From Myxococcota bacterium (lineage in GTDB: Bacteria > Myxococcota_A > Polyangia > JAAYKL01), in contig JASJCT010000010.1 of NCBI GenBank assembly GCA_030065855.1, positions 1 to 64,000 of the forward strand: DNA of 64,000 bases. The letters are read 5' to 3'. Below are positions 302 to 25,481 of the stretch, one piece after another. The notes under the pieces are model-generated. The model did not search any database. It saw only the letters and a program-made list of their open reading frames with translations, and was not told where the DNA came from. Every line of letters starts with the position of its first letter. Positions within the stretch are counted from its first letter, which is position 1. A program made the position numbers and the translations under genes.

Positions 302-1237
302 CTACATCACTCCGGGCGGTTGTTGGGGCTCGGAGATAATCTCCATTGCACTCGGAACCTCTGTGGTCGGTACTACTGCAGTCGCAACCTCTATCTGTCC
401 AGCTCCTTCTGGCCCGATCTCAGCTCTCTCTTTGGGCTTACCCTTTTTTTTGGCCATGCGAATGCTGGGATAGCGGTCTAACGCCTTGGGGTCGTCGCGA
501 AAGGCAAAGCACGCTGCTGCCCGAATGTCCTCTATACCCTGGCGCAGGTACTCACCGGCCTTGTCCCTTTGTAGGCGAATGTCGGAAACCTCCTTTGTCT
601 GGACCCCGCCCAAGGCGGTCATCATCTTGGCACCCAGCTCTTGGGCCAGCAGCACCTCGTCTTCGGTCACGTTGCAGTTCGTCTCTGCCTCGTCCCAATG
701 GTCGATGAACAACGTAGCCAGGGCACCCAGGTCATCTGCCCGATTTAAATGACTGTTGCCCGCGCGAATCTTGGCCACCTCTTCTCCCAGATCTGGATCG
801 TCTCCCCATAGGTAGTCAGCTGCTTTGACCAGCTTTGCCCTAAGGGGCCCGGCTGCAGCCAAAAGGGTCTGCATGCGACCGCCTTGGTCGCAAATACGCC
901 GTAGAAGAATGTCCAGGTGCCAAAATGCTTGGGCCCGATCCCGCATATTGTCGAAGGCAGCCACGTCAAAGACTGACTTTTGAAAGGTGTCTTGGAAGAC
1001 CTCCCGGTCTTCTGCATACAATTCGGCAAAGTACAGGCCATAGCTGACCAAGGACGGCGGGGTGACTGGCAGGCGCCGTATTGACGCATCGTCGATTTTC
1101 GAGAGAAAGGGCGCAATTGCCTCGAGGGCTCGTTGCCCCTCTGATTGGCCAAAGGGACTGGCCGGCGCTGGTTGCTCCGTGGCTCTGTTGGCCACAACAG
1201 TCATGGGCGTCTGCTTTTCAGTGGGTTGGGATTGCAT
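302..1237 (-). CDS. Hypothetical protein
   Basis: I do not recognise this 311-residue protein. It looks soluble and mainly alpha-helical, with no signal peptide or membrane segment. The first 40 or so residues are polar and Pro/Gln-rich; residues 40-250 are the likely folded part; the tail has a Lys-rich patch (AKKKGKPK) and then a Pro/Glu/Val-rich disordered end. I chose the ATG at 1237 because AAAGGAG sits 6 bases upstream. An in-frame ATG at 1294 would add 19 residues and has a weaker site. The gene stands alone, facing away from the phosphate operon. Confidence 0.75.
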   Translation of the reverse strand: MQSQPTEKQTPMTVVANRATEQPAPASPFGQSEGQRALEAIAPFLSKIDDASIRRLPVTPPSLVSYGLYFAELYAEDREVFQDTFQKSVFDVAAFDNMRDRAQAFWHLDILLRRICDQGGRMQTLLAAAGPLRAKLVKAADYLWGDDPDLGEEVAKIRAGNSHLNRADDLGALATLFIDHWDEAETNCNVTEDEVLLAQELGAKMMTALGGVQTKEVSDIRLQRDKAGEYLRQGIEDIRAAACFAFRDDPKALDRYPSIRMAKKKGKPKERAEIGPEGAGQIEVATAVVPTTEVPSAMEIISEPQQPPGVM

Positions 1238-1626
1238 GACATGCTCCTTTGCCATCTGTTCGATGGCTGTTTGAGGGTGATGCACCTCCCTCATTGAAAA
1301 GGCCGTGCCACAAATCGCACACCCAAGGGTTATATGGCTAACTAACTAGAGTTATTTAATTATTCCTAACAGGCGCGGATCACCTAAACGGTTAAAAACC
1401 CGGCCGACAGCCTTACAAAGATGTCACCCCTTACAAAGATGTCACCCCCTGCCTGACAATCGTTACAATCGAGGCATGTCCTGACCCTGGATTTCAATCG
1501 CAGATAGCACCTAGATAAAACGACAAGCAGAATCTTCTTTAGAAAAGTGCCGTATACTTATGAAATATAATATCTTTTCCCGCGCCAGAACCATATTATG
1601 TACCCCTTCACTTAGAGTTTTCTACG
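1238..1626. other. Intergenic region upstream of pstS
   Basis: AT-rich stretch without a plausible gene. It carries an 18-bp perfect tandem repeat at 1411-1446, and the Pho box and promoter of pstS follow directly. I see nothing else here. Confidence 0.6.
1411..1446. repeat. Perfect 18-bp tandem repeat, two units
   Basis: CCTTACAAAGATGTCACC occurs twice head to tail with no mismatch. It lies between the hypothetical gene and pstS. Tandem sites of this size are typical of protein binding sites or of multi-repeat transposon ends, but no transposase is near. Confidence 0.8.
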
Positions 1627-1660
1627 TTGTCACAGGATTGTCACGTCCTAAGCCTATTAT
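1627..1660 (+). promoter_or_regulatory. Pho box and -10 element of pstS
   Basis: TTGTCAC (1627-1633), AGGA, TTGTCAC (1638-1644): two 7-bp direct repeats at an 11-bp period, as in the PhoB consensus CTGTCAT-N4-CTGTCAT. A -10-like TATTAT lies at 1655-1660, ten bases after the second repeat, the spacing of PhoB-activated promoters in which the box replaces the -35. It predicts induction of pstS on phosphate limitation by a PhoB-type regulator, which is not encoded in this window. Confidence 0.75.
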
Positions 1661-1711
1661 CCCCAGTGAACAAAAGCTGAGAAGAGAACGCTGAAAAGAG
1701 GAGGATGTATA

Positions 1712-2620
1712 ATGAGGTATTCGATTATCGTATTCGTTGTTTATGTCGCAGCTTTTGGTTGTGGCAAAAGCGATACAAAATCCGTCGAGCCCGGCGCTGC
1801 CCAGGATCAGGGCAAGCGAACTGTGATTCAAAACAAAGGGTCAGATACCCTGGTCAATGTAGCCCAGGCCTGGGCCGAAGCTTACGCTGAGGTGGAGCGC
1901 AACGTGGCAATCGCCGTGACCGGAGGTGGTTCTGGCACGGGTATTTCGGCCATGATCAACGGTACCGTTGATATTGCCAATGCCTCTCGCAAAATGAAGG
2001 ATAAGGAAATCGAAGCCGCCAAGAAGAACGGCATCGAGCCGGTCGAGCACGTCGTGGGCTACGACGCTCTGGCGGTTTTCCTGCACAAGGACAACCCGAT
2101 GAACGAGGCCACGTTGGCCCAGCTCGCGTCGATTTACGGCGAAGGCGGCAAGGTGGAAAAATGGTCTGACCTCAATATCAAAGTCCCAGGCTGCGATAGT
2201 GACGAGGTCGTGCGCGTTAGCCGGCAGAACAACTCTGGCACGTATGCCTATTTTAAAAAGGCCGTACTGGGCAAGGGCGCGGAGTACAAACTCGGCTCCC
2301 GGGACATGCACGGCTCCAAAGACGTGGTCGAGCTCGTCGCCAAGACCCCGTGTGCTATCGGCTACAGCGGCCTGGCCTATGCCACGGACCACGTAAAAAT
2401 GCCCTGTATTAAAAAAGAAGACGCAGCCGAGTGCGTTGCACCGACCATTGAAACGGCGAGCAATACCACCTATCCCATCGCAAGGCCCCTAATGATGTAC
2501 ACCGCAGGCCAACCAACGGGAAAGACCAAGGTGTATATGGACTGGATCATGAGCGACACAGGACAGTGCATCATCCTTAAAAAGGGCTACGCACCGATCA
2601 AGCCCGTTACTTGTAAGTAG
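1712..2620 (+). CDS. pstS: Phosphate ABC transporter substrate-binding lipoprotein PstS
   Basis: Binds inorganic phosphate outside the inner membrane and passes it to PstCA. A short hydrophobic signal ends in a lipobox Cys (AAFGC, about residue 17), so it is probably membrane-anchored. Phosphate-binding segments are visible: GSDTL near 44, the Gly/Ser-rich GGGSGTG near 71 followed by VDIANASR, and RQNNSGTY near 170. The start has a strong AGGAGG upstream. It follows a Pho box and is separated from the rest of the operon by a long terminator-like hairpin, which could make it the most abundant product. Confidence 0.95.
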   Translation: MRYSIIVFVVYVAAFGCGKSDTKSVEPGAAQDQGKRTVIQNKGSDTLVNVAQAWAEAYAEVERNVAIAVTGGGSGTGISAMINGTVDIANASRKMKDKEIEAAKKNGIEPVEHVVGYDALAVFLHKDNPMNEATLAQLASIYGEGGKVEKWSDLNIKVPGCDSDEVVRVSRQNNSGTYAYFKKAVLGKGAEYKLGSRDMHGSKDVVELVAKTPCAIGYSGLAYATDHVKMPCIKKEDAAECVAPTIETASNTTYPIARPLMMYTAGQPTGKTKVYMDWIMSDTGQCIILKKGYAPIKPVTCK

Positions 2621-2660
2621 TGAAATGATAAACGAATTTTGGCGGGCAAAGATTGAAAAT

Positions 2661-2713
2661 TCCCCCTTGAAAAAGGGGGATATCCCAGCCCCTGCCCCCT
2701 TTTTCAAGGGGGA
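2661..2713. terminator. 19-bp inverted repeat between pstS and the phoU-like gene
   Basis: TCCCCCTTGAAAAAGGGGG (2661-2679) pairs perfectly with 2695-2713 across a 15-base loop, followed by GGTTTTTTAT. It is built from two opposed copies of the C5/G5 repeat also present at 56-73. It resembles an intrinsic terminator and could attenuate transcription into the downstream pst genes. Confidence 0.7.
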
Positions 2714-2775
2714 GGTTTTTTATCCGACATTGCAAACTGGACAGAGCACTACTGCTGAGGAGAGAGATAAAGCCT

Positions 2776-3831
2776 ATGACGCTCTATGAACAGCGATTGA
2801 GCGAGGATCTCCAGGAGATCCGGATCAAGGTGCAAGACATTGCCGACCGGGTCTGCGCTGCGCTCGAAAACGCAGTCGCCGCCATTGCCAAAGACGACCG
2901 GGAAGCGCTTTATCAAGTGGTTCTCGACGACTACGGCATCAACCGGGATATCCGCTGCATTGACAAACGCTGTCACGAGTTCGTGGCCCGTCACTTGCCT
3001 GCGGCCGGACACCTGCGATTCATCTCTGCGGTGCTGCGCATGACCATCGCCCTCGAACGGGCTGGAGACTACGCCGTAACTATCAGCCGCGTGATGCTGC
3101 AACTGTCCAACCCCCTGTCGCCAAAGATAGTCGAGCGGGTACAGGAAATGTCCGCCATCTCGATCAAAATGATGGGGGATGCCACACGCGCTTTCCTGGC
3201 CGGAGATGCGGAAGCGGCAATAGAAACCAAGAAACTCGACTACGAGGTGGACAGGGCTTACGACGAAATTTTCAGCGCCCTGATGGAACACGGTGCAGAC
3301 CGGGAGCCACAGGAACTGGTATCCCTGCTCAAAATCTTCAGCAAGGTAGAGCGCTTTAGCGACCAGGCAAAAAATATTTGCGAGGAGACTGTATTTTCAG
3401 CCACGGGCAAGATGAAGGTCCCAAAAGTCTTCAACGTACTGTTCGTGGACGAGCGCAACGACCTGGTCAGCTTGCTGGCCGAGGCCATTGCCCGCAAGGC
3501 ATATCCCGGAGAGGGGGTATATGCCAGCGCTGGTTGGTCGCCTGCGGCAGAGATACATCCAGACCTCAACAGAATTGCCGAGCAGTTCGGCTTTGATGTC
3601 AGCCGCGCCAGGCCGTCGCGGGTGAGGAAGCTCGATACCTTCCCCACGCCTTACCACTTGGTCGTAGCGCTGAACATGCCACAAGGGGACGCGCTTTTGG
3701 ACTTGCCGTATCACACCATCCTGCGAACGTGGGACGTTCCTATTCCTGAAAACCTCGAATCCCTAGTGCACGACCTGAGCAGCCGCATCAGTGCGTTGAT
3801 GGAGAAGCTACGTGGCAAGCAAGCCGACTGA
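2776..3831 (+). CDS. PhoU-domain protein fused to an inactive LMW-phosphatase-like domain
   Basis: Residues 1-215 form the two PhoU helical repeats, with the metal-binding signatures ERAGD (near 93) and VERFSD (near 195). PhoU proteins couple the Pst transporter to the PhoR/PhoB sensor pathway. Ordinary PhoU ends near 230-240 residues; here a further 130 residues resemble a low-molecular-weight protein tyrosine phosphatase or ArsC fold (VLFV...AEAIA near 221-236). The catalytic CX5R loop reads DERNDLVS, without the nucleophilic Cys and the Arg, so this domain is probably a binding or sensor module. It sits between pstS and pstC and its last codons overlap pstC. Confidence 0.85.
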   Translation: MTLYEQRLSEDLQEIRIKVQDIADRVCAALENAVAAIAKDDREALYQVVLDDYGINRDIRCIDKRCHEFVARHLPAAGHLRFISAVLRMTIALERAGDYAVTISRVMLQLSNPLSPKIVERVQEMSAISIKMMGDATRAFLAGDAEAAIETKKLDYEVDRAYDEIFSALMEHGADREPQELVSLLKIFSKVERFSDQAKNICEETVFSATGKMKVPKVFNVLFVDERNDLVSLLAEAIARKAYPGEGVYASAGWSPAAEIHPDLNRIAEQFGFDVSRARPSRVRKLDTFPTPYHLVVALNMPQGDALLDLPYHTILRTWDVPIPENLESLVHDLSSRISALMEKLRGKQAD

Positions 3832-4765
3832 ACGCCCCACGGGTCGCGTATCGCCTGAAAACCGATCGGCGACCCACGACAAGCTGGACCTGGCTTGGTT
3901 CAGCGATAAGGCAGTTTACCTGATCGTCTTTATCGGCGGTGTGTCGGCGATTATTTTCATCCTCAGCGTATTCACGTTCATCACGCGCCAGGGCATCGAT
4001 TTTATCTCAGATACCATTGATTTCGGAGAGTTCTTCAGCTCGCCGGCGTGGCGGCCCACATCAGATATTAAACCCACCTACGGCGCCCTAGCGCTGATCG
4101 TCGGTACGGCCAGCGTTACCGGACTAGCAGTGTTACTGGCTGTACCTTTCTCCCTGGGCGCTGCGATCTTTGTGGCAGAGTTTGCAAAGGGAAAAGTCCG
4201 GGAGACGTTAAAGATCCTAATCGAGCTACTCGCTGCCATTCCTTCGGTTGTCTGGGGATTCATCGGTCTGTCTATCCTCAACCCATTGATCATCGAGACG
4301 TTTGACGTACCAATGGGGCTTAACCTGCTCAACGCCGGTGTGATCCTCGGCCTGATGGCAGCGCCCATCATGACCTCGATTGCCGAGGACGCGCTCAAGG
4401 CAGTACCGGATCATTATCGAGAAGCAGCCGAAGCCATGGGCGCCACCCGCTGGCAGGTCATTTGGAAAGTGGTGTTGCCAGCTGGCAGAAAGGGCTTGCT
4501 CGCCGCAGTGCTGCTCGGCGTGGGTCGTGGGTTTGGCGAAACCATGGCAGTGCTGATGTGCAGCGGCCATTCCATCAATATTCCGGACAGTATCTTTGAC
4601 TCCGTGCGGGCCCTAACCGCCAGTATCGCTGCTGAGTTGGGCGAGACCGCAGTGGGATCTGAACACTACGGCGCCCTGTTTACCCTTGGGATCTTTCTCT
4701 TCATCATCACGTTCGTCATCAACCTGACCGCCGACCTCATTGTGAACGGCGTCCGTAGGAAGTGA
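3812..4765 (+). CDS. pstC: Phosphate ABC transporter permease PstC
   Basis: Inner-membrane permease that pairs with PstA to form the phosphate channel. About six transmembrane helices follow a polar N-terminus of 35 residues. The cytoplasmic EAA loop that contacts PstB is clear (REAAEAMGATRW, near 205-216), as is the family GRGFGETMAV segment. It starts at a GTG inside the end of the phoU-like gene (20-base overlap) with GGAG just upstream, so translation is probably coupled. Confidence 0.95.
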   Translation: MASKPTERPTGRVSPENRSATHDKLDLAWFSDKAVYLIVFIGGVSAIIFILSVFTFITRQGIDFISDTIDFGEFFSSPAWRPTSDIKPTYGALALIVGTASVTGLAVLLAVPFSLGAAIFVAEFAKGKVRETLKILIELLAAIPSVVWGFIGLSILNPLIIETFDVPMGLNLLNAGVILGLMAAPIMTSIAEDALKAVPDHYREAAEAMGATRWQVIWKVVLPAGRKGLLAAVLLGVGRGFGETMAVLMCSGHSINIPDSIFDSVRALTASIAAELGETAVGSEHYGALFTLGIFLFIITFVINLTADLIVNGVRRK

Positions 4766-4769
4766 CCCG

Positions 4770-5639
4770 ATGTTCGAAACAACGCAACTAAACCGCCGCA
4801 ATCAGCGCATCGAGAGGTCCATGGGGATCCTGTACCTCATTATGACCCTGATGTTGATCTTGCCGGTGCTGCTGATCCTCGGATTGCTGGTATACAAAGG
4901 GGCCGGACATCTCACCTGGGAGTTTCTCTCTACCGATCCCAAGAACGGCATGACTGCAGGCGGTATTTTTCCCGCGCTCATCGGCACAATTGCATTGGTG
5001 GTGTGCGCACTGATCGCCTCGGTGCCCATTGGCGTGGCAGCTGCTGTATATCTCTCCGAGTTCGCCCCTGACAACTGGTTTACCCGAATTATCAACCTGG
5101 CGATCATCAACCTCGCTGGCGTGCCGTCCATTGTCCACGCCCTTCACGGGCTCGGGGCCTTTGTGCTGTTTTTCAAAATGGGCACCAGCATCCTGGCTGC
5201 CAGCCTGACCCTGGCCATTGCCACCTTGCCGATGGTTATCGTTGCTACCCGAGAATCTCTCCAGGCAGTGCCCCATGCATTCCGCGAGGCCTGCTGGAAC
5301 ATGGGCGCCACGCGCTGGCAAACCATTCGCAAAGTCGTGCTGCCAAACTCAGTGAGCGGCATCCTGACCGGCGTCATCCTCGAAGTCTCCCGCACAGCCG
5401 GTGAGACCGCGCCGATCATGTTTACCGGGGCCGCGTTCTTTTTGCCGTTTCTTCCTGAAAGCCTGCTCGATCAGACCATGGCCCTATCGTTACACCTGTT
5501 CGTCATCTCTACACAAGTGCCAGGGGTTCCTGAGCACATGCCGTTCACCGTGGCCCTGACGTTGATCGCCATTGTGTTGTTTATGAACGCGCTCTCCATC
5601 GGCTTCCGGATTTGGCTCAGAGGGAAAAAGAAATGGTAG
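4770..5639 (+). CDS. pstA: Phosphate ABC transporter permease PstA
   Basis: Second permease of the Pst importer. Six predicted membrane helices and the EAA loop REACWNMGATRW near 171-182, followed by the conserved SRTAGETAPI segment. It starts four bases after the pstC stop. Its last codons overlap the start of the first pstB gene. Confidence 0.95.
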   Translation: MFETTQLNRRNQRIERSMGILYLIMTLMLILPVLLILGLLVYKGAGHLTWEFLSTDPKNGMTAGGIFPALIGTIALVVCALIASVPIGVAAAVYLSEFAPDNWFTRIINLAIINLAGVPSIVHALHGLGAFVLFFKMGTSILAASLTLAIATLPMVIVATRESLQAVPHAFREACWNMGATRWQTIRKVVLPNSVSGILTGVILEVSRTAGETAPIMFTGAAFFLPFLPESLLDQTMALSLHLFVISTQVPGVPEHMPFTVALTLIAIVLFMNALSIGFRIWLRGKKKW

Positions 5640-6421
5640 CTGCTGCAAACAGCGCTGGCCAGCAGACCCCAAAGATCGAGGTGCGGGATCTGACCATCAA
5701 GTACGGCCGCACCCCTGCCCTATCAGGCGCCAGCTTTGACATTTACGAAAACGAGATCTTCGGCATCATCGGACCGGCCGGCAGTGGCAAGACATCTCTC
5801 TTGCGGGTGCTCAATCGGATGGACGCGTTCACCGCTGGCATGCGCTTTAGCGGAACAGTTCGCTACGACGGAAAAGATTTGAAGTCGTGGCGCAACCTGT
5901 ACGCGCTCAGGCGCCGCATTGGCGTGGTCTTCCCCTTGCCAGTGGGCCTGCCCCTGAGCGTCTACGACAACGTGGCCATGGCACCGCGGCTCTACGGCAA
6001 GTACAACAATAAATCCGAGCTCGACGACCTGGTGGAAAAGCATTTGCGCCGGGCAGCCCTATGGGACGAGGTCAAGGACCGGCTCGGATCCCTGGGCAGC
6101 CTGCTATCTGGCGGTCAGCAACAGCGACTCACCATTGCCCGGGCCCTTTCCCAAGAGCCAGACCTACTACTGCTGGACGAGTTCTCCATCGCCGTGGATC
6201 CGGTCACGACCATGCGCATCGAAGATGTGCTCAAAGATCTCCGGGACGAGATGACCATTGTACTCGTGACCAACCTCACCCAGCAGGCCAGGCGCCTGGC
6301 GGATCGCACTGCGTTCTTTCTGACCGGCGAGTGTGTAGAAGTGGGCAGCACCGACGATCTTTTTACTAGGAACGTGAAAGACGAGCGCACGAGCGCCTAT
6401 GTGGAGGGCCGCTTTGGCTAG
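5633..6421 (+). CDS. pstB: Phosphate ABC transporter ATPase, PstB-like 1
   Basis: First of two adjacent PstB-type ATPases. Visible motifs: Walker A GPAGSGKTS (47-55), signature LSGGQQQR (158-165) and Walker B LLLLDE (178-183). The Q-loop Gln is replaced by Pro (VVFP, 101) and the switch His of the H-loop by Asn (VTNL, 214). It thus offers a good signature to a partner but has a poor ATP site of its own. I chose the ATG at 5633 because AGAGGGAAA lies upstream; an upstream TTG at 5612 is possible. It overlaps pstA by 7 bases. Confidence 0.88.
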   Translation: MVAAANSAGQQTPKIEVRDLTIKYGRTPALSGASFDIYENEIFGIIGPAGSGKTSLLRVLNRMDAFTAGMRFSGTVRYDGKDLKSWRNLYALRRRIGVVFPLPVGLPLSVYDNVAMAPRLYGKYNNKSELDDLVEKHLRRAALWDEVKDRLGSLGSLLSGGQQQRLTIARALSQEPDLLLLDEFSIAVDPVTTMRIEDVLKDLRDEMTIVLVTNLTQQARRLADRTAFFLTGECVEVGSTDDLFTRNVKDERTSAYVEGRFG

Positions 6422-16670: not shown

Positions 16671-16759
16671 GCGCTACTCTCTGACTTCATAGCAAAAAGA
16701 AAAGGTGCCGTTTCGCTGCAGTCACCCGGTGTCCGGCGACTGTGTGTTGGAGTTTTATA

Positions 16760-18025
16760 ATGAGAGTAATTAGCAGAGGTACGCCTCTTCTTTGTTTATT
16801 GACAGCGATGCTGCCGGCAGCACTGGCCCAGGTCGCCTCTGGTGAATCAGAGCTACTCCAGGCCTCCCAGGCGGTCATCAAGGCAGTCGAACAGGAACCA
16901 GTGGCAGCATACCTGGCAGCGCAACAGGCCATGGCCCGTGCCGAGATTGCCGGATTGACGTGGCCCAATCCAGTTGTTTCCTTTGATCGGGAGCAGCTAT
17001 TTGATTCGCCCGCAGGGGACGGTGAGACCGAGATGGTGGCGGGAATTTCACAGCAGTTCGATTTCTCAGGGCGCAAAAGGCTACAACAGCAAGCTGCCGA
17101 GCATCGGATCAACGCCCAGACAGCCGCGGGTGAGGCTTTGAAAGGGGAGATTGAAGCGCAGACGCTCCAGGTATTCTATCAAACCCTTCACCAGCAGCGC
17201 CGTGTAGACGTACTCAAGCACTGGAAACAACAGCTCCAATCTGCAATGGCCGGCCTAGAAAGACGCGCTGCAGCAGGGGACGCGGCTGAATACGACGTGC
17301 TTCTGCTCAACCGTGAGATTGCCGACATCACCGCGCGCATCGATGTACATCGGGCCGAGCGCGAGTTTGCCTGGTCAGCGCTCGTTGCGATCATGGGCCA
17401 GATGGATATCAAGCCCAGACCCTGGCCCCGCGTGGGCGGCACCCTGCTGCCCCATGTAGCGGAGATTGCCGGTCCGAATCCCGGATTCCCTGCGGACGAA
17501 CACCCAGAGATCACAGCATTGGACCAGCTGGCCAAGGCAAGCGAGATTGAAAAGCAGGCGGCTGGGCGCTGGTGGATACCTGAGCTGACCGTCAATGGGG
17601 GATACAAGGTCCGGCGCCTGCCCGGAGATAGGGCCCATGGATTTACCATTGGCGCGTCCATACCCGTGCCGCTATTTTCCAGAAACCAGGGTGCTGAAAA
17701 GGCCGGTGTGGCCAGGCAGCGCCAGGCAGAGGCGGAGAAATCCATAAAACTGCGCCAGATATCGGGCGAGATAAAGGGCTGGCTGGAAAAAGCAACCATC
17801 CTTGCACAGGCGGCCCGTGAATTTCAGGATGCTGCAAACCATGCTTCGGTTCGGTTGGTCGAAACAGCACAGGCCGGGTTTCTCGGTGGAGAACTGTCTG
17901 TGCTAGCCCTGGTCGATGCTTACGAGCGCGCAGCGTCAGCCCAGCTCAAGGCCTTGGATATGGCGCTGGCAGCGCGCACGGCTCAGGTTCGGCTGGGCCG
18001 CCTAACCAGGAGGCCTGTCCAATGA
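16760..18025 (+). CDS. Outer-membrane efflux protein, TolC/CusC-CzcC type
   Basis: Outer-membrane channel of a tripartite metal pump. A Sec signal peptide (MRVISRGTPLLCLLTAM, cleaved after ALA) is followed by the two coiled-coil-rich repeats of outer-membrane efflux proteins (PF02321). At 421 residues it is typical. The ATG at 16760 is preceded by GGAG. The stop overlaps the adaptor gene start in ATGA, so the three genes are co-translated. Confidence 0.9.
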   Translation: MRVISRGTPLLCLLTAMLPAALAQVASGESELLQASQAVIKAVEQEPVAAYLAAQQAMARAEIAGLTWPNPVVSFDREQLFDSPAGDGETEMVAGISQQFDFSGRKRLQQQAAEHRINAQTAAGEALKGEIEAQTLQVFYQTLHQQRRVDVLKHWKQQLQSAMAGLERRAAAGDAAEYDVLLLNREIADITARIDVHRAEREFAWSALVAIMGQMDIKPRPWPRVGGTLLPHVAEIAGPNPGFPADEHPEITALDQLAKASEIEKQAAGRWWIPELTVNGGYKVRRLPGDRAHGFTIGASIPVPLFSRNQGAEKAGVARQRQAEAEKSIKLRQISGEIKGWLEKATILAQAAREFQDAANHASVRLVETAQAGFLGGELSVLALVDAYERAASAQLKALDMALAARTAQVRLGRLTRRPVQ

Positions 18026-19638
18026 CAAATAAAATGAAATTGTTTGTAACCACCTGGGTTGTGATGGTGGGGGTTGCCATGTTCACCGGGTGCCGTGCAG
18101 ATGGGACCCACAGCCACGCCCACGGCGACGCGCACGGACATGGGCACGGTCATGAAACCGAGCACGCCCACGACCACGGGGATACGAGCCGCGCGGTCGT
18201 GGTAAAGACCCACTTCACTGACCGCACCGAGCTGTTTGTAGAATTCGCCGCCCTGGTAAAGGGGGAGCCGTCGGTCATGGCAGCCCATCTAACCCGGTTG
18301 ACCGACTACTCACCGGTGACTGCCGGCATGGTCACTGTGGTGCTCAGCGGTGGTGGTCATCCCAACGAAGTCTTCTCGGTTAACACGCCGAGCTCGCCCG
18401 GGATATTTCGCCCTACGGTCACGCCTGAGTACAAAGCTGAGCGCCAGGTGATCCTGCGATTGAAAACAAAAGACCTGGACATCAGCCACGATCTGGGCGA
18501 GTTGCCTGTGTATGCCGCCACCAGCGAAGTACCCCTGCAAGCCAGCGCAGGAGCGTCCGGGGGGATTTCATTTCTCAAAGAGCAGCAATGGAAGATCGAT
18601 TTCGGTATCATCCAGGTAGTCGAGCGGTCGTTTCGGCAGGCAATCCCTGCTTACGGCAAACTGATCGCCCGGTCTGGCGGCAAAGCGATCATCACTGCGC
18701 CCGTGGCCGGCAGGGTGCTGTCAGTGGACGAGCGCTTTGTTCGATTGGGAGACGACGTGGCAAAAAACCAGACACTTTCGACCCTGAGCGTACGCAGCGA
18801 TCAGTCAGCTGATCCAGCAGCGCTGCAACTGGCCAGGGAGCAGGCCCGATTGTCCCTTGATTTCGCGACCGCCGAGCTAGGCCGGTTGACATCCCTTTAC
18901 GAGCAGGGAGCCGTGGCCGAGCGGCGGGTGCTTGCCGCGCGCAAGGAAGTGGAGACCCGGCAAGCCGAGTACAAAGCATCGATGCAACGGCTGCGGCAAC
19001 ACCTGGATCACACGGGCCAAACCCGAGGTCGAAAAAAGGGCAACCTGAGCATCCGGACGCCCATTGCAGGCACGATTACCCGCGTTTTGGCCACGCCTGG
19101 AGCGTTTGTGGAAGCCGGTGCCGAGTTGTTTCACGTGGCTGATCTGGATCAGTTGTGGCTTGAGGCGCGGGTCACCGAGGCCAATGTGGGAAAGTTGGTC
19201 GATCCCCAGGGCGCGTGGTTTCAGGTAGATGGATTTGAAGCGCCGTTCGAGACCGGGGATGGGGCATTGGTAACGGTAGGCGGCGTGGTCGACGAGCAGA
19301 GCCGCACTGTCCCGGTCATTTTTGAGCTGGTCAATCCAGATCGCCGGTTGCGCATCGGCATGTCAGCTGATGTGAGGATCGTCGTGGGTCAGGCCCGTTC
19401 AGGCCTGGCAGTGCCCCAAGATGCGATCCTCCATCAAGAGGGCCAGGAGATCGCATTCGTCATGGTCCAAGGTGAGACCTTTGAGCGCCGCTTGGTCGAG
19501 CTTGGCATTCGCGAGGCCGGCTATGTGGAGGTCACGTCTGGTCTCGATCTAGGTGAGCGCGTGGTCGACAAGGGAGCATTTGCGGTTCGGTTGGCAGGGT
19601 CAGCCGCTCAAATCCCGTCCCACGGCCATACCCATTGA
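18022..19638 (+). CDS. Heavy-metal RND efflux periplasmic adaptor, lipoprotein
   Basis: Membrane-fusion protein linking the RND pump to the outer-membrane channel. A signal peptide with lipobox (FTGC, near 24) is followed directly by a His-rich metal-binding stretch (about 31-54). The barrel-sandwich hybrid and alpha-hairpin lie around 230-370 and the beta-barrel and membrane-proximal domains to 520. It ends with HGHTH. At 538 residues it is longer than AcrA-type adaptors because of about 180 extra N-terminal residues, as seen in CusB/CzcB relatives. The metal cannot be assigned. Confidence 0.9.
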   Translation: MTNKMKLFVTTWVVMVGVAMFTGCRADGTHSHAHGDAHGHGHGHETEHAHDHGDTSRAVVVKTHFTDRTELFVEFAALVKGEPSVMAAHLTRLTDYSPVTAGMVTVVLSGGGHPNEVFSVNTPSSPGIFRPTVTPEYKAERQVILRLKTKDLDISHDLGELPVYAATSEVPLQASAGASGGISFLKEQQWKIDFGIIQVVERSFRQAIPAYGKLIARSGGKAIITAPVAGRVLSVDERFVRLGDDVAKNQTLSTLSVRSDQSADPAALQLAREQARLSLDFATAELGRLTSLYEQGAVAERRVLAARKEVETRQAEYKASMQRLRQHLDHTGQTRGRKKGNLSIRTPIAGTITRVLATPGAFVEAGAELFHVADLDQLWLEARVTEANVGKLVDPQGAWFQVDGFEAPFETGDGALVTVGGVVDEQSRTVPVIFELVNPDRRLRIGMSADVRIVVGQARSGLAVPQDAILHQEGQEIAFVMVQGETFERRLVELGIREAGYVEVTSGLDLGERVVDKGAFAVRLAGSAAQIPSHGHTH

Positions 19639-19653
19639 TCCGTTGAGGATACG

Positions 19654-22600
19654 ATGATCGATAAACTGATAAACTGGTCCTTAGAGAAACGGTTCTTCGT
19701 GATCGTAGCTGCGGCGGCCTTGCTCGGGCTCGGCATCTACCGCGGCGCCAATATAAAGGTCGACGTGTTTCCCGATCTCACTGCGCCCACGGTGACGATC
19801 CTCACCGATGCCCACGGCATGGCCACCCAGGAGGTGGAGCGGTCCATTACCTTTCCCATCGAAGCGGTGCTTAACGGTGTCGCAAATGTCCGGCGGGTTC
19901 GCTCGATTAGCGATGTGGGATCGTCGGTAATCTGGGTCGAGTTCGACTGGGGCGCGGATATCTACCGCGCCAGGCAGGTCGTGGCTGAGAAGCTGCAGCT
20001 CGTGCGCGAGTCCCTGCCGGAACAGGCGTCCCAGCCGGTGATCGCGCCCATCACCTCGATCATGGGCGAGGTGATGTTCATCGCTCTGACCGGAGACGAA
20101 CATTCGCTCATGGACCTCCGGACACAGGCGGACTGGGTGGTCAAGCGGCGTCTGCTGGCTGTGCCCGGTGTATCCCAGGTCATCTGCATCGGTGGCCAAG
20201 TCAAGCAGTTCCAGGTGCTGCTCGACCCCAGCCGGCTGGTGGCCTATGGCCTTTCGGCCGCTGAGGTGGTGGCGGCGCTCAGGGAGAGCAACGAGAACAC
20301 ATCAGCCGGCTTTTTCGAGGAAGGTGGCCTGGAGCACGTGATCCATGGTGTCGGTCGGATCGCCAGGATCAAAGACTTGGAACAGACTGTCATTGCCGTG
20401 CGCGATAAAAAACCAGTGCTGGTGCGCGATGTCGGCCGGGTGATTATCGGTCCTGCCCTGCGTCGCGGTGCTGGATCTTACAACGGCGAGCCCGCTGTGG
20501 TGCTAGGCATTCAGAAACAACCCACTGCCAACACCCTCGAGCTCAACCAGCGGCTCGACGCGGTAATCGAAGACCTGAGGACCAGCTTACCCACCGGCAT
20601 CACCATCGAACGCAATGGATTTCGCCAGGCCGATTTTATCGAAGTGGCCCTGGCAAACATCAGTGCTGCGATCCGCGACGGTTCGATCCTGGTGGTGTTC
20701 ATCATCCTGGTCTTTGTGATGAGCCTGCGCTCGACCCTGATCACCGCATTGGCGATCCCCCTGTCGCTGATCACTGCCCTGCTGGTACTCGAAGTGATGG
20801 GCGCCACAATCAACACGATGACCCTAGGCGGGATGGCCATCGCAGTGGGCGCGCTGGTGGACGACGCCATCATTGGCGTGGAAAACACAGTCCGCCGGCT
20901 TCGTCAGGACAATGGAACAGGGGAGCGCACCGGCCCCTCCCTGATGAAGATCGTGTTCGGAGCGATCAGTGAAATTCGAAATTCGATCGTCTTTGCCACC
21001 CTGATCATCATGCTCGTGTTCCTACCCCTGTTTTTTCTCACCGGCGTGGAGGGCCGGTTACTCATGCCGCTTGGCCAGGCCTACATCATCTCTTTGTTCG
21101 CCTCTCTGCTCGTGGCCCTGACCGTTACGCCGGCGTTGAGCCTATGGCTTTTGCCCAGATCCCGCACGGTAATGGCTGCCCGCGAGCCGCTCGTGGTCGT
21201 GTGGCTCAAGCGCGCATATGCGCCCTTACTCACAAAGGCGCTCAAACATTGGAAATCAGTTGCCATTGCAGCCGGAGGTCTGTTGATCGGAGCTGGGGGC
21301 GCGGTGTTCTTTGCCGGGCAGGCGTTCTTACCAGATTTCAACGAAGGTGCTTTGACCCTCAGCACGGTCACCTTGCCCGGGACCAACCTTACAGCATCAG
21401 AGCAGCTCGGTCGATTGGTGGAGCAGACATTGCTCAACGAGCCCGAGGTGCTCTCTACCACGCGACGCCAGGGCAGAGATGATCTGGACGAACACGGCAT
21501 GCCCCCGAGCTCTGCCGAGATCGATGTGACCCTGGAGATGGGCGATCGCTCAAAGGGAGAACTCCTGGGCTCGGTCCGCGAATCCCTGTCAGCCATCCCT
21601 GGGTTGACCGTTATCATTGGGCAGCCCATTTCCCATCGCATCGACCATATGCTTTCAGGCACCCGGGCTAGCATTGCAGTGAAGATCTTCGGGCCCGAGC
21701 TCTTTGTGCTGCGCGACCTGGCAGAGCAGGTCCAGACGGCTATGCAAGACATCCCCGGCGTGGTGGACTTGTCCAAGGATCAGCAGGCTGACATCCCCTT
21801 TGTTACGGTCTCATACGATCGCCCTGCCATTGCCCGGCACGGCCTCAAGATCCAGGATGTGTCCCATGCGATCGAGACCGCGTTTCGCGGCGAGGTGGTT
21901 ACCGAGATAAGGGAGGAACAGGCGAGCTTTGGCCTGCTGGTGAGGTACGAGGCAGATCAGGTCGAGAGCCTTGAAACGATGCGCGAGCTGCTGATCGCAA
22001 CGCCTACCGGGCCCATGGTGCCGCTCCACGCGCTAGCCCACATACAGCGGGACGTGGGACCTAACATGATCAGCCGGGAACATGTCCAGCGAAAAGCAGT
22101 GGTATCTTGCAACGTGGCCAACAGGGACCTTCAGGCCGTGGTGGACGATATTCGCTGGGCAGTCCAAGGGAATGTGACGATGCCACCAGGGTATCACGTG
22201 GCATACGGTGGGCAGTTCGAGTCAGCCGAGCGTGCCACAAGAACACTTGGGCTATTGGGCGTCCTGGTGGTGGCGGGCATCTTCCTGTTGTTGTTTATCG
22301 CGTTTGGATCGATTCGGGACGCGGCCCTTGTCATGCTTAACCTACCCCTGGCCCTGATCGGCGGCGTGATCGGGGTCTTTGTCTGTGACGGCGTGATCAC
22401 CATTGCATCGATTATCGGGTTCATCTCCCTTTTTGGCATTGCCACGCGCAACGGCATCATGATGATCACCCATATTCGCAACCTGGTGGAACAGGAGGGG
22501 ATGACTGACGTGGCAAGTGCAGTCAGAAGGGGCGCTGAAGAGCGCTTGATTCCCATCCTGATGACCGCCCTGGCCTCAGGGCTCGGCCTCCTACCCCTGG

Positions 22601-22764
22601 CCCTGGCCCAGGGGGAGCCGGGTAGTGAAATCCAGGCGCCAATGGCGATCGTGATCCTGTTTGGCCTGATGACCGCCACCGTGCTGAACATGATCGTGGT
22701 CCCTGCCCTGTATCAGCGGGTAGGGTCCATTGCGAAACGTTCGTATGGAGCGTCGATTCTATAG
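19654..22764 (+). CDS. Heavy-metal efflux RND transporter (CzcA/CusA family)
   Basis: Proton-driven inner-membrane pump, 1036 residues, with 12 membrane helices and two large periplasmic loops. KVDVFPDLTAPTV near 30 and the TM4 signature GMAIAVGALVDDAIIGVEN near 390-408 place it in the heavy-metal (HME) branch. Acidic residues needed for proton relay are present. It lies 15 bases after the adaptor gene. The exact ion (Zn/Co/Cd or Cu/Ag) is not clear; the TM4 sequence matches neither the classical CzcA nor CusA version exactly. Confidence 0.93.
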   Translation: MIDKLINWSLEKRFFVIVAAAALLGLGIYRGANIKVDVFPDLTAPTVTILTDAHGMATQEVERSITFPIEAVLNGVANVRRVRSISDVGSSVIWVEFDWGADIYRARQVVAEKLQLVRESLPEQASQPVIAPITSIMGEVMFIALTGDEHSLMDLRTQADWVVKRRLLAVPGVSQVICIGGQVKQFQVLLDPSRLVAYGLSAAEVVAALRESNENTSAGFFEEGGLEHVIHGVGRIARIKDLEQTVIAVRDKKPVLVRDVGRVIIGPALRRGAGSYNGEPAVVLGIQKQPTANTLELNQRLDAVIEDLRTSLPTGITIERNGFRQADFIEVALANISAAIRDGSILVVFIILVFVMSLRSTLITALAIPLSLITALLVLEVMGATINTMTLGGMAIAVGALVDDAIIGVENTVRRLRQDNGTGERTGPSLMKIVFGAISEIRNSIVFATLIIMLVFLPLFFLTGVEGRLLMPLGQAYIISLFASLLVALTVTPALSLWLLPRSRTVMAAREPLVVVWLKRAYAPLLTKALKHWKSVAIAAGGLLIGAGGAVFFAGQAFLPDFNEGALTLSTVTLPGTNLTASEQLGRLVEQTLLNEPEVLSTTRRQGRDDLDEHGMPPSSAEIDVTLEMGDRSKGELLGSVRESLSAIPGLTVIIGQPISHRIDHMLSGTRASIAVKIFGPELFVLRDLAEQVQTAMQDIPGVVDLSKDQQADIPFVTVSYDRPAIARHGLKIQDVSHAIETAFRGEVVTEIREEQASFGLLVRYEADQVESLETMRELLIATPTGPMVPLHALAHIQRDVGPNMISREHVQRKAVVSCNVANRDLQAVVDDIRWAVQGNVTMPPGYHVAYGGQFESAERATRTLGLLGVLVVAGIFLLLFIAFGSIRDAALVMLNLPLALIGGVIGVFVCDGVITIASIIGFISLFGIATRNGIMMITHIRNLVEQEGMTDVASAVRRGAEERLIPILMTALASGLGLLPLALAQGEPGSEIQAPMAIVILFGLMTATVLNMIVVPALYQRVGSIAKRSYGASIL

Positions 22765-23767: not shown

Positions 23768-24265
23768 TTATTTGGCGCGGACATAAGGCGAGAGCATTTG
23801 CATAATCTGACTGAACTGTTGCTTCACCAGGTCGTCTGGGTCGATGAGCCTTCTGGGGTCTGTTGATACTGGCGTCTCAGATGGACATCCTATGATCATC
23901 TCGTCGATCACGATTTCCCTTTGACAAGTGTCGCAGTAGTTACAACTGCCATCGCATTTTTGGCAGGATTGACAGGTCACACAATTCTCGCACGAATCGC
24001 ACCTATTACAATAGGTGCAGGACGTACAGCCATCAACCGATTCACCGAGCATGCCCGGGTTCATCCGCTCCAGAACATCCATCGGCGTCACATGGCGGTC
24101 GAGATCGGGAATCAACTCCCTAAGCAGTTGAATCGTCGCAGCCGCCTGTTCTGGATCAAAGCTTTCAGCAGACCTAATGGTCTCTTTGACAGCTGCCACT
24201 TGCTCGTTGTGGTCAATCTCTTGCTCTAGGGCCTTAGACCGCTCTAGCTTCTTCTTTTTTGGCAT
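23768..24265 (-). CDS. Cys-rich protein with CXX repeat, candidate radical SAM substrate
   Basis: A 165-residue protein. Residues 1-75 are charged and helical, like a leader. Residues 80-114 carry 12 Cys at positions 80, 83, 86, 89, 92, 95, 98, 101, 104, 108, 111 and 114, almost every third residue, and a thirteenth is at 127. The last 40 residues are a Cys-free tail. There is no signal peptide. The ATG at 24265 has GAGGGGGAGA upstream and overlaps the end of the radical SAM gene by 32 bases, so the two are co-translated. By context it is the likely substrate of that enzyme (thioether-type peptide). A metal-cluster protein is the main alternative. Confidence 0.8.
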   Translation of the reverse strand: MPKKKKLERSKALEQEIDHNEQVAAVKETIRSAESFDPEQAAATIQLLRELIPDLDRHVTPMDVLERMNPGMLGESVDGCTSCTYCNRCDSCENCVTCQSCQKCDGSCNYCDTCQREIVIDEMIIGCPSETPVSTDPRRLIDPDDLVKQQFSQIMQMLSPYVRAK

Positions 24266-25481
24266 GGTTCTCCCCCTCTCTGTGAATGGTCGGACGTTGT
24301 CCTTCCTCATTTACAGTTACACCGGTGTCAGCACCTTTTTGCTGACACCGTTCAAAGTCATCAAGGCGTTTAAAGCCAAAGTGATTCACAATGGCCCTGG
24401 ATACTTCGTGGCGGATCAGCTCGTGGAAGCGCGACCAGCGAGGGCGCATTAAAAGATTGCCTGTAACAGCCAAGTTGGCCGCAGTGCAGCTGCCGCTACA
24501 GACCTCGCTCAGCTTGCAGTCCGCACACGGCATGTCACAGCCGAGAATGTTGCGGCGCGTCATGCGCAGAAACGGCAGCCGGCGCGTCTCGTCCAGGCTT
24601 GTGTCAATGTGGCCGATGGCATGACTGCCCTGACAACTCTCAGCAGTGGCAAAGCGGTGACATGGATAGAGCGTGCCGTCCACGCCGACCGCCAGATAGC
24701 CGCGCCCTGCGCCGCATAAGTGAAGATCTCCATTGCAATTTTCTGACTCACATGCGCCGCTATTGGCGCGTAGCATTGCTTTAATCCCCTTGTCCAGTGG
24801 ATTGACAGACCGCTTGGCGCCCTGGTCCAGCATTTCAGTATACATCTCGCCAATTTGGTAAAGCTGATCCTGGTAAGTGATCAGGGAGTTGCGATCCCAT
24901 GGGGTCTCTTCTGTATAGTAAATCGCGATATGCTCAAAGCCCAGATCGAGCAGGGAGGATACGCCTTTTGCAGTCAGATGAACGGTTTGCGGCGTAACGG
25001 TTATCCGCACTTGCTTGGAGCGCGCGGTGTTGAGTATCCGGTCCATATTCACGGCGAGCTTGCCGTAGGAGCCCTCACCATTTGCGAACCGTCTGTTCAT
25101 GTCGTGGGCTTCTGGCAGGCCATCGCAGCTCAACAGCACGCCAATGCCGTGTTCCTTCCAAAAGTCAGCCACCTCATCGCTGAATAACAGACCATTTGTT
25201 GTGGCGGTAAAGGTAAAGTGTTTGCCGACCTCGTCTGCTCGCCTGCGGGCATACGGGATCACCTCGCGTATCACTGGCATGTTGATCAGCGGCTCTCCTC
25301 CAAACAAGGTGATCTCCAACTCCTTGGACGGGCCAGAAACATCACTGCGCAAAAGCCAGTCTACAGCCCGTTTGGCCGTGTTAGCGGTCATGTGCTCGCC
25401 CCGCTTCTCGCCCTCAAAGCAATAGGCGCATGACAGGTTGCAGCCAGTCGTAACCATCAATGATATAGCTGAGATATACAT
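24234..25481 (-). CDS. Radical SAM/SPASM peptide-maturase-like enzyme
   Basis: 415 residues. The [4Fe-4S]-SAM motif is CNLSCAYC (Cys 14, 18 and 21), followed by FGGEPL typical of the family. The C-terminal SPASM domain shows the Cys pattern for two auxiliary clusters: CGAGRGY...GTLYPC, then CX2CX5CX3C (CADCKLSEVCSGSC). SPASM enzymes modify ribosomal peptides (sactipeptides, ranthipeptides, geopeptide-like products) or act as sulfatase maturases. The Cys-rich gene overlapping its 3' end argues for peptide modification; no sulfatase is in the window. Confidence 0.92.
   Translation of the reverse strand: MYISAISLMVTTGCNLSCAYCFEGEKRGEHMTANTAKRAVDWLLRSDVSGPSKELEITLFGGEPLINMPVIREVIPYARRRADEVGKHFTFTATTNGLLFSDEVADFWKEHGIGVLLSCDGLPEAHDMNRRFANGEGSYGKLAVNMDRILNTARSKQVRITVTPQTVHLTAKGVSSLLDLGFEHIAIYYTEETPWDRNSLITYQDQLYQIGEMYTEMLDQGAKRSVNPLDKGIKAMLRANSGACESENCNGDLHLCGAGRGYLAVGVDGTLYPCHRFATAESCQGSHAIGHIDTSLDETRRLPFLRMTRRNILGCDMPCADCKLSEVCSGSCTAANLAVTGNLLMRPRWSRFHELIRHEVSRAIVNHFGFKRLDDFERCQQKGADTGVTVNEEGQRPTIHREGENHAKKEEARAV

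Follow-up and report, generated by a model that had tools for sequence, protein, structure and literature searches.

In the 64,000-nucleotide stretch of a Myxococcota contig analysed here (hereafter 'the window'), two overlapping genes, one for a radical SAM (rSAM)/SPASM enzyme and one for a small protein with cysteines at every third residue, probably form an enzyme–substrate pair in which the enzyme places thioether cross-links in the cysteine ladder (Table 1). The pairing is likely on the strength of the translational overlap of the two genes and of the fact that related enzymes in viral contigs repeatedly lie next to CXX ladders, both of which support the original prediction of such a pair. 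We give about an even chance to a wider reading, namely that the window pair is one instance of an undescribed class of PapB-like rSAM/SPASM enzymes that turn C-x-x ladders into cross-linked structural rods, with some phages carrying a thioether-reinforced tail tip.

Table 1. Features of the enzyme–ladder gene pair (window coordinates).
Feature	Position	Strand	Basis
Radical SAM/SPASM enzyme, 415 aa	24234..25481	-	CX3CX2C at residues 14-21; profile matches
CXX-ladder protein, presumed substrate, 165 aa	23768..24265	-	stop TAA 23768-23770
N-terminal part, residues 1-79, predicted helical, leader-like	24029..24265	-	AlphaFold2, low confidence
Ladder, residues 80-114, 12 Cys, CTSCTYCNRCDSCENCVTCQSCQKCDGSCNYCDTC	23924..24028	-	sequence
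C-terminal tail, residues 115-165, 13th Cys + predicted helix 143-163	23771..23923	-	
Gene-gene overlap, 32 bases	24234..24265	-	sequence
Shine-Dalgarno-like AGAGGGGGAG before ladder gene	24270..24279	-	sequence

Both genes are real ORFs at the place first given for them, and the overlap is as it had been described, the bases common to both running from the end of the enzyme gene (stop codon included) to the ATG of the ladder gene at 24265; a 180-aa version of the ladder ORF in the ORF listing begins at a start further upstream. The Shine-Dalgarno-like sequence is strong and lies 4 nt before this ATG, and the overlap suggests that the enzyme and ladder genes are translationally coupled. The neighbours are ordinary chromosomal genes, and the G+C content of the pair is the same as that of its surroundings. 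An MFS gene lies 106 bp upstream of the enzyme gene and overlaps lpxC by 4 bp, an sppA-like gene is also among the neighbours, and two HSP20 genes nearby are convergent with the pair (lpxC, sppA and the efflux genes mentioned next were named by eye). The MFS gene had been put forward as an exporter; its position was borne out, and a role in exporting the 165-aa product was unsupported. Also close to the pair, on the plus strand, is a CzcCBA-like heavy-metal RND efflux operon (16742–22764).

The ladder protein has 13 cysteines (residues 80, 83, 86, 89, 92, 95, 98, 101, 104, 108, 111, 114 and 127), of which 12 sit in the C-x-x ladder with a spacing of three residues but for one four-residue step, as had been read from the sequence. 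Codons and spacer residues vary along the ladder, so it is no tandem repeat at the DNA level; it is preceded by 79 residues and followed by a tail of 51. Single-sequence AlphaFold2 modelling predicts helices at residues 5–32, 38–51, 61–68 and 143–163 and gives the ladder segment no structure (mean pLDDT 43, low confidence), so that the helical N-terminus and the tail claimed around the ladder hold at the level of prediction. The profile search proposed as a check returned no match to the protein in Pfam, NCBIfam or PHROGs, and in Pfam this includes ferredoxin and Fer4 domains. Nor does the ladder fit the pattern of CXXX-repeat substrates, whose cysteines recur at every fourth residue.

The intact CX3CX2C motif claimed for the enzyme was confirmed (C14, C18 and C21 in GCNLSCAYCFE) and, together with a PF04055 score of 49.8 bits against a gathering score of 29.5, places the protein in the Radical SAM superfamily. 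The 'full' SPASM pattern, on the other hand, was a misreading: six cysteines are present (C256, C274, C319, C322, C328 and C332), while the final one, a Cys in all 12 other aligned enzymes, is Phe, and the Pfam SPASM model (PF13186) is barely exceeded (21.7 versus 21.5 bits). The best curated NCBIfam model is that of the ranthipeptide maturase PapB (NF047865; 277.6 bits, E = 1.4e-82, cut-off 340), followed by the nif11-peptide, QhpD, SCIFF (TIGR03974; 192.9 versus 425 bits) and CXXX-repeat (TIGR04115; 154 versus 350 bits) maturases, and the enzyme falls below every curated maturase cut-off. Two further assignments were rejected: the geopeptide maturase (TIGR04280; 102 bits, cut-off 400), and with it the suggestion of a geopeptide-like product, and the anaerobic sulfatase maturase (TIGR03942; 89.9 bits, cut-off 349), a grouping that the original prediction had set as its own refutation. 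The other product suggested, a ranthipeptide-like one, is acceptable as a description of mechanism but not of membership, because PapB is the best model but is matched below its cut-off. The enzyme has no RRE/PqqD-like N-terminal domain; the match to the radical SAM core begins within a few residues of the protein's start, and longer maturase models begin to match it only at profile positions 77–96. The nearest solved structure (5wgg/5why) is an rSAM/SPASM enzyme known as the SCIFF maturase CteB.

The window pair is an orphan. Among 290 genomes of the class and 379 of the phylum, the ladder protein had no close homologues beyond tandem-repeat artefacts, and searches of plasmids and the PDB gave low-complexity or chance matches or nothing; the Cys-rich protein is thus not one that is widespread without the enzyme in the sampled genomes, the other refutation that had been proposed. 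Homologues of the enzyme are common in the class (63 of the 290 genomes, at most 37% identical), and in the homologue loci inspected from other genomes, which cover about 1.5 kb on each side, no enzyme adjoins a ladder of CXX or CXXX type. A scan of genome contigs with the enzyme led to two distant loci. That no second genome with the pair was found in the class and phylum samples, and that the window enzyme shows only about 30% identity to any other, both count against the enzyme–substrate reading. In trees the window enzyme sits on a long branch, and groupings with the phage ladder enzymes, the bacterial clade of its class, the SCIFF maturases or the nif11-type enzyme were none of them rejected (p-AU 0.15–0.30), which weighs against that reading too.

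Ladders also occur without an enzyme. In DNA at large, CXX ladders that arise by chance or low complexity consist for the most part of tandem repeats of 9 or 18 bp, as the window ladder does not, and CXX-ladder proteins with no enzyme are found in phages and in the window genome itself. One conserved protein of ~140 aa, unrelated to that of the window and with the ladder CTRCxxCVFCxxCDRCYRC (L462, L463, L465, L466, L467 and L469), is present in most of the 14 genomes of the window's taxonomic family, the window genome included, and has no rSAM motif within ~1.5 kb on each side of six copies. Since ladder families occur without an enzyme, one of them in this very genome, a ladder alone is not diagnostic, and these enzyme-free ladders together with the missing final SPASM Cys argue against the pairing. 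The enzyme-free ladders also lend weight to the view that the window ladder protein is an unmodified metal-binding or redox protein, metallothionein-like, and that the rSAM enzyme acts elsewhere or is a mere neighbour, as does the nearby RND efflux set. We regard this as unlikely, although less so than the other alternatives below, given that the efflux genes are on the opposite strand with the two HSP20 genes between, that the ladder gene overlaps the enzyme gene by 32 bases, and that the composition of the ladder's spacers sides with enzyme-linked ladders.

This last point comes from a per-unit log-odds score of spacer composition (in bits per unit, own clades left out). In enzyme-linked ladders the first spacer is mostly Q, D, E, N or V and the second T, S, V or A; in ladders without an enzyme the second spacer is mostly D, N, S, G or Y. 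The window ladder scored +0.81, near the bottom of the range for enzyme-linked ladders (0.34 to 2.86), and all 23 ladders without a nearby enzyme fell below it (-2.91 to +0.57), as did six members of the ~140-aa family (-0.77 to -1.38); the sets compared are small, partly related and chosen by us. In spacer composition, then, the window ladder resembles enzyme-linked ladders more closely than enzyme-free ones.

Viral contigs were scanned for ladders only, beginning with a pattern of eight CXX units, which returned mostly tandem repeats, some real ladder proteins with no rSAM gene in view, and one enzyme-linked locus, L061, in which two ladder ORFs immediately precede an rSAM/SPASM gene. Its relatives L180–L182, whose enzymes are 58–60% identical, keep this arrangement, the order being a gene for ~1,100 aa, one for ~370 aa, a protein of 820–940 aa with a C-terminal ladder of 54–68 CxxC units, then a stand-alone ladder protein and last the enzyme. 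A second pattern added L213, L244, L265, L268 and a gut group (L185, L198, L221, L227, L261 and L262), and a third, tighter pattern 68 more loci, among them no new enzyme-linked one. Because these scans were swamped by tandem repeats and enzyme-free ladders, ladders alone were dropped as evidence, and to avoid choosing by ladder we searched the viral contigs with an alignment of enzymes only (A2), which yielded 80 loci. A CXX-ladder ORF (a CXX run of at least 5 Cys) lay near the enzyme in 17 of the 80, always on the same strand and at -52 to +85 bp, a count that is not a prevalence since A2 contains four ladder-linked seeds; the 17 loci represent 13 distinct arrangements, four of them the seeds. 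The shuffled-protein control gave 2 of 80, the sole ladder match away from an enzyme or another ladder in these loci was an antisense ORF, and a control scan with a phage QueE gene gave three loci, which is too small a number for a comparison. Thirteen of the ladder-linked enzymes form a supported clade, the others falling in a second clade and apart; ladder-less members of the second clade that we inspected often adjoin Cys-rich proteins with CXXX or mixed spacing. PapB is again the best model for the phage enzymes of L213/L376 (280.6 bits) and L441 (202.4 bits). In the short sets of L441 and L244 the ladders are small and the enzymes lack long extensions. It is this recurrence of the same kind of pairing in many phages that makes cross-linking of the window ladder probable.

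Other cysteine-rich arrangements were seen in the viral records. The gut-group loci encode, next to their rSAM genes, two small CQTCQGC-ladder proteins with leader-like N-termini and CNCNCSDD tails, and a comparable short Cys peptide follows the rSAM gene of Phage Phass-1 (L301). CXXXC-ladder proteins stand beside an rSAM gene in the viral locus L375 (252–3894), and CXXX ladders adjoin enzymes in L423 and others too. Four records labelled fecal bacteriophage (L300, L372, L373 and L374; MT835702, MT837264, MT836452 and MT835472) carry genes for a SCIFF-like precursor and maturase and are therefore probably bacterial fragments; we rejected these enzyme matches (up to 34% identity) as SCIFF-like loci. 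Many radical SAM genes have been reported in a paper on Campylobacter phages that never mentions cysteine (PMC2853527).

The long ladders of the phages are carried by a protein that we call only 'tail-hub-like', since its whole-chain TM-scores are low (0.2–0.3). Modelled from eight sequences, it reached a mean pLDDT of 52, with the best blocks at 70–85 and the ladder unstructured; in the PDB it is closest to tail-tip proteins of T5-like DT57C, T5 and lambda (E = 1e-10 to 1e-8), and among the proteins that it matches in BFVD are tip attachment protein J and a central tail hub. In L061, L180–L182, L265, L411, L413, L422 and L427 such proteins end in 23–68 CxxC units, and the hub ladder is followed by the stand-alone ladder protein and then by the rSAM/SPASM gene. 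A search with the hub part alone found 13 loci, most of them the seed contigs (new are only L482, L484 and L487); a ladder is present in 12 of the 13, and 11 of those 12 have the enzyme, the sequence of L487 ending right after the hub. In L484 the hub (1045–3162) ends in an H-x-D repeat that replaces the Cys ladder and is overlapped by a SPASM-type rSAM gene (3099–4439), and in L482 (9161–11485) an intein-like, homing-endonuclease-like insert splits the rSAM gene inside CX3CX2C, between the second and third Cys. Among named phages, no isolate with hub, ladder and rSAM genes together came to light. The literature searched held no description of tail-hub CXX ladders with an rSAM gene, nor, in its open-access part, of rSAM chemistry building virion parts.

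The phage loci bear on two further alternatives. It is quite improbable that the ladder protein is no substrate but an accessory that carries Fe–S clusters or electrons for the enzyme. CXXC units can bind iron–sulphur clusters, the window enzyme lacks one SPASM Cys, and related phage enzymes have CxxCYxC modules within their own N-terminal extensions, but in phages the ladders exceed 200 residues and belong to a protein whose model resembles a tail hub, and such a protein is no enzyme accessory; the window protein, moreover, has no ferredoxin or Fer4 match. Scarcely probable, too, is that the pair does not work as a bacterial system and is what remains, degenerate or domesticated, of a ladder–maturase module from a phage: neither reading frame is disrupted, the radical SAM motif, the ribosome-binding site and the overlap are all intact, the G+C content matches the surroundings, and the adjoining genes (lpxC, the sppA-like, MFS and HSP20 genes) are not those of a phage, against which stand the nearest parallels in phages, the loss of the last SPASM Cys and the lack of a close relative in the phylum sample.

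Returning to the enzyme–substrate pair, we infer the action of the enzyme on the ladder protein, the thioether chemistry, the acceptor residues and the biological role as follows. With the genes overlapping, the enzyme would bind the ladder protein during its synthesis; as it has no RRE-type domain, recognition is probably via the helical N-terminus of the ladder protein. Radicals derived from SAM would then join ladder Cys sulphurs to nearby spacer carbons as thioethers. The acceptor may be the residue at i+4. In a CXX ladder this position falls on the first spacer of the following unit, where most cysteines of the window ladder have T, N, D, E, V, Q, Q, D, D or Q, and it would match the acceptor place in the Cys-X3-Asp/Glu motifs of PapA; alternatively, the links may be to alpha-carbons, as in sactipeptides. 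The modified ladder would form a rigid rod or patch held by cross-links, kept on the 165-aa protein or released, and the parallels in phages favour a structural or surface function over that of a small antibiotic.

In the curated libraries, the known rSAM ladder systems have other spacings (CXXX, Cys at every fifth residue, SCIFF). A CXX ladder paired with an overlapping maturase gene would bring in a further spacing, in which every Cys lies on one face of a chain with three residues per turn. The same pairing on tail-hub-like proteins suggests that phages use rSAM chemistry in building parts of the virion. If the ladders are modified, this would be a new use of that chemistry: such phages would have a tail tip reinforced by enzymatic thioether cross-links, with the ladder as a C-terminal extension of the central tail hub.

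How, then, does the window pair compare with known systems? PapB links Cys-Xn-Asp/Glu with n = 0–6 (PMC9413430), and the likeness to PapA/PapB lies in the rSAM/SPASM enzyme, the repeated Cys donors and the acceptor-like D/E/N/Q residues at i+4; in contrast to PapB, the window enzyme is below the 340-bit cut-off, lacks the last SPASM Cys and has no N-terminal RRE-like extension. With CteB (TIGR03974; 5wgg) it aligns in the rSAM and SPASM domains over residues 3–334, whereas ~95 N-terminal residues of CteB are absent from it. SCIFF, as its name says, is a six-Cys peptide, of about 45 residues. The phage modules (L061, L180–L182, L213, L244, L265, L268, L411, L413, L422, L427 and L441) share with the window a PapB-like rSAM/SPASM gene adjoining same-strand CXX-ladder genes with similar spacers, yet their ladders precede the enzyme, are mostly longer and are often on the tail-hub-like protein, while the window ladder follows its enzyme; for these modules the libraries searched held no curated family except the uncharacterized phrog_15341 and phrog_1802. 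Finally, the CXXX-repeat system (TIGR04115, TIGR04116 and TIGR04119) likewise pairs an rSAM/SPASM enzyme with a protein whose Cys ladder is long and regular. A genuine member, which counts in favour of the enzyme–substrate reading, is present in the same genome on contig C179 (L173, G000:C179:31000-38000; genes at 1358–2878, 2957–4078 and 4179–5054), with a TIGR04115 enzyme above cut-off (533 bits), a fused TIGR04119/TIGR04116 protein and a convergent gene whose protein combines 17 Cys spaced by four residues with a long TD-repeat stalk and a signal-like N-terminus. The same genome holds another putative RiPP cluster (L174, G000:C140:19000-26000; 1696–5648), where the gene for a 104-aa precursor-like protein ending in CNNGGTCGIA is followed by a pair of SPASM-type rSAM genes and by one more gene, radical SAM-like and of B12 type. 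The CXXX-repeat ladder has a spacing of four against three in the window, and inspection of the ORFs beside the window pair revealed no TIGR04116 or TIGR04119 partner gene; judged from sequence, the pair looks like a CXX counterpart of the CXXX-repeat system, without its partners.
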